From Fibrobacter sp. UWH6 (GTDB taxonomy: Bacteria; Fibrobacterota; Fibrobacteria; Fibrobacterales; Fibrobacteraceae): 64,000 bases of DNA. Made by a program: the position numbers and the translations under genes. This document shows positions 5,599 to 8,442 of this stretch, one piece after another (the stretch's first letter is position 1; every line of letters starts with the position of its first letter). Location of the stretch: positions 124,001 to 188,000 of the forward strand of contig NZ_FRAX01000005.1 of NCBI RefSeq assembly GCF_900142465.1. Reading direction: 5' to 3'. The notes below the pieces were generated by a model that ran no database searches, was not told where the DNA came from, and was given only the letters and a program-made list of their open reading frames with translations.

Positions 5599-7016
5599 TG
5601 ATTACTATTGAAGAATTGCAAGCTCAATTGGCTAGCGGCGCCACAACTTCTGTGAAGCTCACTGAAGAAGCTCTGGCTAAGGTCGAAGCTACTAAGAATT
5701 TGAACGCCTACATTTCCGTTCTCAACGAACGTGCTTTGGAAAAGGCTGCTGAATCCGACAAGCGTCGCGCCGAAGGCAAGACCCTGGGTGCTCTTGACGG
5801 CATCCCCGTCGCCATCAAGGACAATATGTGCCTGGTCGGAACCCGCACCACCGCCGCTTCCAAAATTCTTGAAAATTTCGTGGCCCCCTACACCGCTACC
5901 GCTGTCGAAAAGCTGGAAGCTGCAGGCGCCATCATCATCGGTAAGACCAACATGGACGAATTCGCCATGGGTTCTTCCAATGAAACCTCTTATTTCGGTC
6001 CTGTTAAGAACCCTCTGGATGAAACCCGCGTTCCGGGTGGTTCCTCCGGTGGTTCTGCCGTAGCTGTTGCCAGCGGTACCGTCGCCTGCGCACTTGGTTC
6101 CGACACTGGTGGATCTATCCGTCAGCCCGCCGCCTGCACTGGCGTCGTGGGTCTGAAGCCCACCTACGGCCGCGTTTCCCGTTACGGTCTGTTGGCCTAC
6201 GCCAGCTCCCTGGACCAGATCGGCCCCTTCGGTTCTACCGTCAAGGACGCAGCAATCTTGATGAACGCTATTGTTGGCGTTGACCCCCATGACAACACCA
6301 CCAGCACCCGCCCCGCAGAAGACTTTACTGCAAAGCTGGACGCTGGCGTGAAAGGCAAGGTCATTGGCGTTCCTAAGGAATACTTCGCCGAAGGTCTTGA
6401 TCCTGAATGCAAGGCAGCCATCGAAGCCATGCTGAAGAAGCTGGAAGCCGAAGGTGCCACCATCAAGGAAGTAAGCCTCCCCAACATCGGCAACGCAGTT
6501 TCCAGTTACTACATCATTGCAACTGCAGAAGCTAGCTCCAACCTTTCCCGCTACGACGGCGTTCGCTACGGTTACCGCAGCAAGGATGCCCGCAAGCTGA
6601 TCGACCTGTACTCCATGAGCCGCAGCGAAGCTTTCGGTAAGGAAGTGCAGCGCCGTATCCTCCTGGGTAGCTATGTGCTTTCCGCAGGCTTCTACGATGC
6701 CTACTACGTTCAGGCTCAGAAGGTCCGTCGCCTCATTACCGACGACTTCAACAAGGCTTTCGAAGAATGCGACGTAATCGCCAGCCCCACCATGCCGGGT
6801 CTCCCGCTGAAATGTGGCATGAACGAAAGCGACCCCATGGCCGTTTACTTGAGCGACATCTACACCGTTAGCCTGAACCTGGCCGGTCTCCCCGGCGTAA
6901 GCGTTCCTTGCGGTATGGCTGGCGGCCTGCCCGTTGGCCTGCAGTGGATCGGCAAGCCCTTCCAGGAAGCCGACCTGCTCAGCGTCGCTGCTGCAACTGA
7001 GAAGCTTGCAAAGTGA
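5598..7016 (+). CDS. gatA: Asp-tRNA(Asn)/Glu-tRNA(Gln) amidotransferase subunit A
   Basis: The glutaminase subunit of GatCAB, which releases ammonia from glutamine to convert Glu-tRNA(Gln) and/or Asp-tRNA(Asn) to the correct amide. The amidase signature is intact: Lys in AIKDN (about residue 74), the Ser/cis-Ser loop PGGSSGGSAVAVASG (about residue 148) and GSDTGGSIRQPAAC (about residue 167). The start at 5598 overlaps the upstream stop; a frame extension 18 nt upstream lies inside the previous gene. gatB and gatC are not in the window. The last five codons are duplicated 80 nt downstream. Confidence 0.96.
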   Translation: MITIEELQAQLASGATTSVKLTEEALAKVEATKNLNAYISVLNERALEKAAESDKRRAEGKTLGALDGIPVAIKDNMCLVGTRTTAASKILENFVAPYTATAVEKLEAAGAIIIGKTNMDEFAMGSSNETSYFGPVKNPLDETRVPGGSSGGSAVAVASGTVACALGSDTGGSIRQPAACTGVVGLKPTYGRVSRYGLLAYASSLDQIGPFGSTVKDAAILMNAIVGVDPHDNTTSTRPAEDFTAKLDAGVKGKVIGVPKEYFAEGLDPECKAAIEAMLKKLEAEGATIKEVSLPNIGNAVSSYYIIATAEASSNLSRYDGVRYGYRSKDARKLIDLYSMSRSEAFGKEVQRRILLGSYVLSAGFYDAYYVQAQKVRRLITDDFNKAFEECDVIASPTMPGLPLKCGMNESDPMAVYLSDIYTVSLNLAGLPGVSVPCGMAGGLPVGLQWIGKPFQEADLLSVAAATEKLAK

Positions 7017-7097
7017 GGGTTGCGCCGACAAGCAAATTTGTCGGCATGACCGAACGCAGCAGCGGACGCCAAAGGCGTCAAAAGCTTGCAAAGTGAG
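7002..7097. repeat. 16-bp direct repeat of the gatA 3' end flanking a 64-bp palindromic insert
   Basis: AAGCTTGCAAAGTGAG occurs at 7002-7017 (last gatA codons, stop and one base) and again at 7082-7097, exactly 80 bp apart. The 64 bp between hold two perfect palindromes: GCCGACA...TGTCGGC (7024-7045) and GACGCC AAA GGCGTC (7065-7079). This is the layout of a small insertion that duplicated its target, or of an excision/recombination scar. Confidence 0.7.
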
Positions 7098-7227: not shown

Positions 7228-7257
7228 AAGGATTCGCCCCTCGGGGTGGATCCTTTT
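7228..7257 (+). terminator. Rho-independent terminator downstream of gatA
   Basis: AAGGAT-TCG-CCCC loop TC GGGG-TGG-ATCCTT, followed by T residues. It lies 212 nt after gatA, beyond the direct-repeat scar, and would end the DUF4321-gatA transcript. Confidence 0.8.
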
Positions 7258-7307: not shown

Positions 7308-7526
7308 TACCCATAAAAAATGATCCTTTTCAATTCTTATAGGTAAAATTATAAACAAACTAACACAAAATTTAACCAAATCAGGAAAAAAAGCCCTACA
7401 CTACCTATAACAAAACCAGTATTCAAGTCTGTTATAGGTAATTCAAAAAAAAACATCTTTACAAATAACCAGGTTCCGACCCAAATTATACCCATAATAC
7501 ACCAAATACATTCCAATTTATAGGTA
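7308..7526. promoter_or_regulatory. Three spaced inverted repeats upstream of the PD-(D/E)XK gene
   Basis: Three copies of an inverted repeat with arms TACCYATAA and TTATAGGTA. Copy 1: 7308-7316 / 7337-7345. Copy 2: 7402-7410 / 7432-7440, where the arms are perfect and extend one more base pair. Copy 3: 7489-7497 / 7518-7526. The arm-to-arm gap is 20, 21 and 20 nt. The gap sequences are unrelated while the arms are kept, which argues for a binding site or RNA structure rather than a recent duplication. The right arm of copy 3 contains the AGG of the ribosome-binding site, 4 nt before the ATG at 7531. The surrounding 270 nt are AT-rich with no gene. An operator for autoregulation is an inference. 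Confidence 0.65.
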
Positions 7527-7530
7527 AAAA

Positions 7531-8442
7531 ATGCAAAATCATCTTGTCAAAACACCAATTACCCAAATTCGCAACATCCTGGAAGATGTCGTTGTTCAAC
7601 TATCCGCTCTTTCTCAGCGAATTTTCCGAAGCAAGGCCAAAAAACAGCAAGGATCCTTACGCATCGCCATCAACAAGGGCACTCCTCAATACTATCACAT
7701 AACAACGAAAGGAGATACTAACGGAAAATACATTCCAAAGTCTGACTCCAAGCTGATTTCATCACTTGCGCAAAAAGAGTACCTCGAAAAATGCAACCGT
7801 ATTATTGAAAGGCAACAAAAGGCGCTAGCCCGATTCCTAAAGGATTTTCATCCCGAAGACATCATTGCGGTTCATACAAACCTTACGGAAGCCAAAAGGA
7901 GATTCGTAACGCCTTTGCTCCTAACCGACGAGGAATTTGCAGCGCAATGGCAAGCCAAGCCATACAGTGGAAAATTTTTCGCAAAGGATACTCCAGAACA
8001 TTTCACTAATAGCGGATTACGGGTCCGTTCCAAATCTGAGGTGATTATCGCCGAATGCCTCGCCCGCCACAACATTCCGTTTCGTTACGAAGCCCCGCTG
8101 GAATTAATCATCGGGGATACGTCAAGCATAACCGCCGAAACACCGACGAACAACATTCGCCGACGCACCCTCAATCAAGACGCCGACCTCATGCAAAGCA
8201 AGGCAGTCACATTCTATCCCGACTTCACCTGCTTAAACAAGCGCACCCGTCAGGAATTCATCTGGGAACATTTTGGCATGATGGACAATCCCAATTACGC
8301 CAGAAACGCTATAGAAAAACAACGAAGCTACGCTGCCGCTGGCTACATTCCAGGAATAAACTTTATCGCCACCACCGAGACGACGGATCTTCCCCTGAAC
8401 ATCCCTTACATAGAGCAAATGACAAAATCATTGCTAATGTAA
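7531..8442 (+). CDS. Stand-alone PD-(D/E)XK-type nuclease family protein, function unknown
   Basis: A 303-residue soluble protein. The N-terminal half is helical and basic; it contains TPQYYHITTKGDTNGKYIP, then a long charged helix (80-115). The C-terminal half has a nuclease-like arrangement: SKSE with Glu170 on a helix, FYPDF with Asp231, and FIWEHFG with Glu246-His247, followed by a helix (YARNAIEKQRSYAAAGYIPG) and a final strand. This ordering (Glu helix, beta-Asp, beta-Glu-x-x) is that of the PD-(D/E)XK fold, with His/Phe where Lys is usual. I recall similar unnamed proteins from gut Firmicutes; relative to those, residues 195-225 look like an insert. The gene stands alone behind a triple inverted repeat. 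Fold assignment is an inference from motif order. Confidence 0.6.
   Translation: MQNHLVKTPITQIRNILEDVVVQLSALSQRIFRSKAKKQQGSLRIAINKGTPQYYHITTKGDTNGKYIPKSDSKLISSLAQKEYLEKCNRIIERQQKALARFLKDFHPEDIIAVHTNLTEAKRRFVTPLLLTDEEFAAQWQAKPYSGKFFAKDTPEHFTNSGLRVRSKSEVIIAECLARHNIPFRYEAPLELIIGDTSSITAETPTNNIRRRTLNQDADLMQSKAVTFYPDFTCLNKRTRQEFIWEHFGMMDNPNYARNAIEKQRSYAAAGYIPGINFIATTETTDLPLNIPYIEQMTKSLLM

Follow-up and report, generated by a model that had tools for sequence, protein, structure and literature searches.

The window, i.e., the whole stretch of 64,000 nucleotides analyzed here, belongs to a genome of 3.92 Mb in 50 contigs (G000) whose closest relatives by name are Fibrobacter. Downstream of gatA it carries three paired inverted arms followed by the gene of a predicted nuclease. 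The features on which the analysis rests are the following:

7228-7255, plus strand: terminator-like hairpin 3′ of gatA, from a consensus scan only.
7308-7345, no strand assigned: element 1, TACCCATAA-N20-TTATAGGTA, by exact pattern search.
7402-7440, no strand assigned: element 2, TACCTATAA-N21-TTATAGGTA, whose arms form a perfect palindrome, by exact pattern search.
7489-7526, no strand assigned: element 3, TACCCATAA-N20-TTATAGGTA, whose right arm overlaps the RBS of the nuclease gene, by exact pattern search.
7531-8442, plus strand: cognate gene of 303 aa, predicted PD-(D/E)XK-type nuclease, for which neither Pfam nor NCBIfam has a family above cut-off.
7654-7701, plus strand: codons 42-57, N-terminal beta-hairpin, putative reader of the half-site (AlphaFold2 model and residue-motif association).
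7666-7668 and 7672-7677, plus strand: codons of the candidate specificity positions 46, 48 and 49 (residue-motif association).
8032-8376, plus strand: codons 168-282, predicted nuclease core (alignment A1, the model and a weak match to the C-terminus of PADLOC PDC-S68).

As the hairpin at 7228-7255 closes the upstream gatA, the array and the nuclease gene look like a separate unit. A consensus scan found no sigma-70 promoter within the array. Just 5′ of it there is a perfect 16-bp direct repeat (7002-7017 and 7082-7097), the 3′ end of gatA appearing again 80 bp downstream, which suggests a partial duplication.

A preliminary description of this DNA had reported three TACCYATAA/TTATAGGTA pairs at 7308-7526 with gaps of 20, 21 and 20 nt. 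All of them are recovered, and 100 shuffles of the window gave no match. Placement in the genome is also far from random: the pattern occurs at one other place in the 3.92 Mb, and nowhere in the reversed-pattern control. This second array consists of two elements (G000:C13:111202-111239 and 111370-111407) with an ilvE-like gene on one side and a broken YhcG/DUF1016-like gene on the other, names that were read from the translations. The latter gene (L043:5422-6262), which adjoins the array, seems truncated, its nuclease region partly missing and its frame shifted. Other early claims held in part. The arm centers are indeed 29-30 bp apart, but this spacing corresponds to about 2.75 helical turns rather than to three; the helical phase is precise between elements, which in the window array lie 94 and 87 bp apart. 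Likewise, the gaps are unrelated in sequence as had been stated, but they are not free, their G+C content following a 10.5-bp period. The RBS of the gene at 7531 (TTATAGGTAAAAAATG) does lie inside the last arm, but this is a peculiarity of the window: in homologues the first ATG is found 4-357 nt from the array, and most arrays stop well short of it, commonly by about 120-180 nt.

Regarding the protein, no model of Pfam, NCBIfam or PHROGs reaches its cut-off (Pfam offers just a sub-threshold DUF4364), and a sequence search against solved structures returned nothing significant for the family. The residues that are invariant in alignment A1 (K168-S-E170, E187, D231, E242, E246-H247 and K263, including the KSE and PDF motifs) suggest a PD-(D/E)XK-type core, so that a nuclease is predicted. 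The AlphaFold2 model has a mean pLDDT of 87.6 (90.6 for the N-terminal domain alone), with a high-confidence core. Weak fold matches were obtained to phage nucleases of PD-(D/E)XK type (E ~1e-3 to 1e-2) and, by Foldseek, to MunI, FAN1 and cap-snatching nucleases (E 0.09 or worse). Furthermore, PADLOC finds a likeness between the C-terminal region and the C-terminal end of its PDC-S68 models (E ~1e-22).

The N-terminal domain has no similar counterpart among solved structures. Its assignment to a known DNA-binding fold was discarded, the topology being only weakly chromodomain-like. The bbb-alpha order had suggested the arm-binding domains of integrases as a possible parallel, for which no confirmation was obtained. 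Profile positions 45-118 of alignment A1 match VANC21, a plant transposon protein known for reading short motifs that change rapidly, at chance level (E = 0.99), a lead and not evidence. A phage origin was also rejected: 2.9 million viral contigs contain no family member, and the TACC pattern is present in 25 of them as one isolated element each, as by chance. In many Fibrobacter genomes there are several nuclease paralogues, which differ in motif; the window genome itself has six loci (L033-L042).

If the arms belong to the enzyme, homologues should have them too. The family was sampled at 96 distinct nuclease loci of Fibrobacter, Treponema and Clostridia, and about 550 bp upstream of each were searched for inverted pairs of any motif, without a preset sequence. 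At least two pairs were found at 81 of the 96 loci and at least three at 66, counts that are not independent since many loci are orthologous; first-order Markov sequences gave two or more pairs in none of 288 cases. Thus, paired arms precede most homologues, and a detectable array is absent upstream of 15. The closest homologue retrieved (L006, 56% identical) likewise carries three elements, whose gaps are unrelated.

The half-sites come in about 30 different sequences across these loci. Beside TACCYATAA, a second homologue type has GGCRTATAA pairs, a third has TACATACTA pairs, and there are GGCATATAA arrays as well. Nearly all types share one geometry, with the half-site spanning the stretch 21-9 bp away from the dyad and an A-run at its inward end. 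The half-site logo reads K-TACCYATAA-A. Arrays are almost always located upstream, with cognate elements downstream of the gene in only 4 of 80 loci. At L157 and L166, three cognate elements lie downstream of the nuclease gene as well as upstream.

Distances between element centers are multiples of 10.5-10.6 bp, both for TACC (n = 71, R = 0.926) and GGCR arrays (n = 43, R = 0.936), as well as for the other Fibrobacter motifs (n = 103, R = 0.95) and those of Treponema and Firmicutes (n = 35, R = 0.94). In addition, the G+C content of gaps and linkers rises and falls between about 0.22 and 0.5 every 10.5 bp. Up to 75 bp from the dyad this oscillation keeps a fixed phase relative to it, in all three independent motif groups and beyond every random-phase control. 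Phased AT-rich stretches are a known signature of curved or wrapped DNA. From these regularities, the arrays appear to be curved DNA on which every site faces the same side, and we consider it probable that they form a wrapped multimer with the nuclease.

That the arms are under selection, as had been proposed, is borne out by orthologous arrays, in which substitutions affect 8.8% of arm positions versus 24.5% of those in gaps and linkers (p = 3e-11). Two near-identical arrays, L176 of G036 and L106:4386-4581 of G011, differ at two arm positions and hardly at others; small as the numbers are, it is as if G036 were selectively losing its arms.

Which protein reads the arms? In a protein tree (n = 92, quick search) the motif tracks the clade, and TACCTATAA recurs in separate clades. 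All alignment columns were then scanned for association with motif class over 12 phylogenetic units with recurring motifs, drawn by hand from the tree. Residues 46, 48 and 49 track the motif with scores of 0.81, 0.77 and 0.89, the 95% permutation maximum being 0.64. At position 49, R goes with TACCTATAA, K with GGCRTATAA and H with TTACATACTAA. In the AlphaFold2 model, these residues are found where beta-strand 42-48 ends and where the turn leading to strand 51-57 begins. The clade of the window has a very similar half-site with other residues at these positions, and the code is therefore not universal.

Moreover, two natural exchanges were found. Between L089 and L085 the DNA is 93% identical in the C-part of the gene and 87% downstream, against 65% in the N-part and 68% upstream, and the motifs differ. 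Between L077 and L080 the corresponding values are 84 and 81% versus 58 and 61%, with the motifs swapped likewise. These swaps constitute the strongest indication that the nuclease itself would read the arms. The suggestion that the arms are recognition sites of the encoded protein thus gains strong support from co-diversification, from the residue-motif code and from the two swaps, and it is very probable that the nuclease binds them.

The arrays are not restricted to the vicinity of the gene. In a genus-wide search, the TACC pattern was detected in 18 of 80 genomes with up to 47 copies, GGCRTATAA pairs in 20 of 80 and TACATACTA pairs in 18 of 80, the reversed-pattern controls being zero throughout. 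At least ten elements of one type occur in 16 of the 48 genomes with a family member versus none of the 32 without (p = 1e-4). A few nuclease-free genomes still keep arrays, with one to nine elements (five in G059, nine in G051, two each in G014, G042 and G073). In Treponema genomes of the TACGGATAA type there is an array at the gene and few other elements at most. When 22 dispersed TACC arrays were classed by a simple ORF rule, 11 lay between convergent, seven between tandem and four between divergent genes, with none inside a long ORF; dispersed arrays are therefore not operators in general.

Presence also varies at a given site. One array between fusA and mazG is present in G011 and G036 and absent from G000, G035 and G032, and a second one at an orthologous site is present in the same two genomes and absent from G035, G032 and G034. 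Neither target-site duplications nor clean insertion boundaries could be defined in these filled/empty comparisons, the related genomes being too diverged. Within most genomes TACC arrays have almost nothing in common beyond the arms, which implies that copying there is old or that arrays arise in another way too. In G021, four TACATACTA-type arrays are 80-85% identical over approximately 245-420 bp within unrelated flanks, with only approximate unit ends, and one of them lacks the fourth element through a clean deletion between two arms. Arrays of G018 show about 60-72% identity over 190-290 bp. Taken together, both genomes indicate that arrays can multiply by copying. The four G021 copies also have GAGC-containing heptad repeats (L218:914-954, L219, L220:910-934 and L221:940-961) on the same side, by the outer element; these heptads are rare in the other loci read, and either the mobile unit may include them or they may mark its target. 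That the arrays are mobile units seems to us quite probable. Whether this nuclease moves them is the least certain step, for which we would give slightly less than an even chance.

What would be the function of such a system? Sequence comparison yields cognate pairing of enzyme and array, a common geometry, phasing, purifying selection on the arms, a residue code, module swaps, and dispersal and copying of the arrays. The best explanation of all this is likely a two-part unit, in which a PD-(D/E)XK-type nuclease is combined with an array of sites that it binds itself. Its N-terminal beta-hairpin would read a half-site of about 11 bp (K-TACCYATAA-A). Each of the two inverted half-sites of an element would be occupied by one subunit, and the two subunits would face each other over a bent gap of 20 bp whose sequence is free. 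With elements spaced by whole helical turns on curvature-programmed DNA, the bound subunits would be aligned on one face and the array would fold into a compact, probably wrapped, nucleoprotein complex. Beside the gene, this complex would probably also lower the expression of the nuclease. The array would in addition act as a mobile unit, non-coding and about 200-400 bp long, spread to intergenic sites in genomes with the matching nuclease, as REPs are with RAYT, and specificity would change through the joint exchange of array and N-terminal domain as one module. For self-repression as one role of the complex, most plausible in the window where the RBS is covered, we see balanced chances. A further step, tentative and with the chances somewhat against it, would be to recognize a new class of mobile repeats, in which a nuclease with an N-terminal beta-hairpin domain wraps self-encoded curved arrays on one face of the DNA and propagates them by cutting and copying, with a few exchangeable hairpin residues setting the specificity.

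The preliminary description had proposed, as one of two options, a multi-site operator for tight self-repression of the nuclease. At the window locus this is possible, the last arm covering the RBS, and the almost constant upstream position of the arrays (downstream cognate elements in 4 of 80 loci) agrees with it. As the only function of the array, with dispersed copies as decoys or relics of lost genes, it appears unlikely. Indeed, sites are not confined to promoter or leader, as those of a classical autorepressor would be: the distance to the start ranges over 4-357 nt, half of the 22 classified arrays are found between convergent genes, no long ORF contains any of them, and arrays of three motif types occur dispersed over intergenic DNA, which bears against an operator as the general function. 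Furthermore, some genomes have many more arrays than genes (47, 38 and 35 TACC elements), and, unlike relics, old dispersed arrays keep perfect arms amid unrelated linkers. This same conservation, i.e., purifying selection on the arms at dispersed loci, is what could be expected if the bound nuclease were useful to the chromosome (for its organization, recombination, topology sensing or defense) and the arrays were not selfish. The curved design would fit this alternative, as would arrays of G002 and G038, which are conserved at orthologous sites with matching gap sequences. Nevertheless, array presence is patchy among related species, the family, the arrays or both are missing from many genomes of the genus, specificity changes rapidly, and the link to known defense systems is a weak domain match, so that we regard such a host-serving role as rather unlikely.

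The two other alternatives concern the nature of the arms themselves. Given that nuclease binding is deduced, another DNA-binding protein could recognize the arrays, the nuclease being a passenger. This is very improbable, because half-site types sort with the nuclease phylogeny and with three hairpin residues of the N-terminal domain, the swaps involved that domain and the array jointly, and in the loci read no further gene was seen alongside the arrays. The arms might also be stems of a structured leader RNA, whose fold is slightly better than that of shuffled sequences (z = -2.2). This reading was dropped as extremely improbable: the fold is weak, there is no match in Rfam, two of the three stems have a C-A mismatch on the mRNA strand, half of the classified dispersed arrays lie between convergent genes, and both the 10.5-bp phasing and the G+C periodicity characterize a DNA double helix.

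The open-access papers searched contain no earlier description, and the work of relevance among them was limited to REP/RAYT systems; as preprints and most subscription journals fell outside this search, the novelty of the nuclease/array system, apparently undescribed, is provisional. It has the appearance of a novel type of DNA, selfish or regulatory, whose recognition code evolves, and defines an unnamed nuclease family together with its putative DNA targets. It offers about 30 natural specificities in a fixed geometry, a three-residue recognition code and natural domain swaps. If the mobile-repeat reading is true, the hairpin residues could be reprogrammed. Besides, an array design with curvature and helical phasing implies that a nucleoprotein wrap is formed, whose structure could be solved.

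Several known systems share some of these traits. The sites of TnsB in Tn7 and the ends of Mu comprise several phased protein sites on bent DNA, and TnsA of Tn7 is a PD-(D/E)XK nuclease. The likeness lies in the phased multiple sites, the bent DNA and, for Tn7, the nuclease type. The difference is that here the array alone is the repeated unit: by eye, neither a DDE transposase nor a second end was evident around the window array or the dispersed arrays and loci read. Restriction-type nucleases and FokI-style pairs also have inverted half-sites around a free spacer, a PD-(D/E)XK core and fast-diverging specificity; unlike them, the present system places multi-element arrays in its own chromosome, and no partner methyltransferase was seen beside the nuclease gene. 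The candidate defense protein PDC-S68 is similar in the C-terminal nuclease region, but its models have about 1200 residues and the match is limited to the last 80-115. Nor does the array resemble those of CRISPR-like or guide-RNA systems: its repeats are inverted and phased, and the gaps of orthologous arrays drift by substitution.

The closest system is REP/RAYT, in which transposases of the IS200/IS605 tyrosine (HUH) type (Pfam01797) are accompanied on both sides, in inverted orientation, by REPs, which are compact palindromes (PMC2817692). In both cases a dedicated DNA-cleaving enzyme, predicted as such here, lies beside cognate inverted repeats (PMC2817692), the repeats are dispersed in intergenic DNA and abundant only with the enzyme, and enzyme and repeats coevolve. 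The nuclease/array system is not a member, however, because it differs in the enzyme family (conserved residues of PD-(D/E)XK type and an N-terminal beta-hairpin domain instead of an HUH enzyme) and in the repeats, which are one-sided, with downstream elements in only 4 of 80 loci. Moreover, 20 bp of free sequence separate its half-sites, and its elements are phased on what appears to be curved double-stranded DNA. It would thus constitute a second, mechanistically unrelated case of the question that REP/RAYT poses, i.e., why genomes keep an enzyme together with its own dispersed intergenic repeats.
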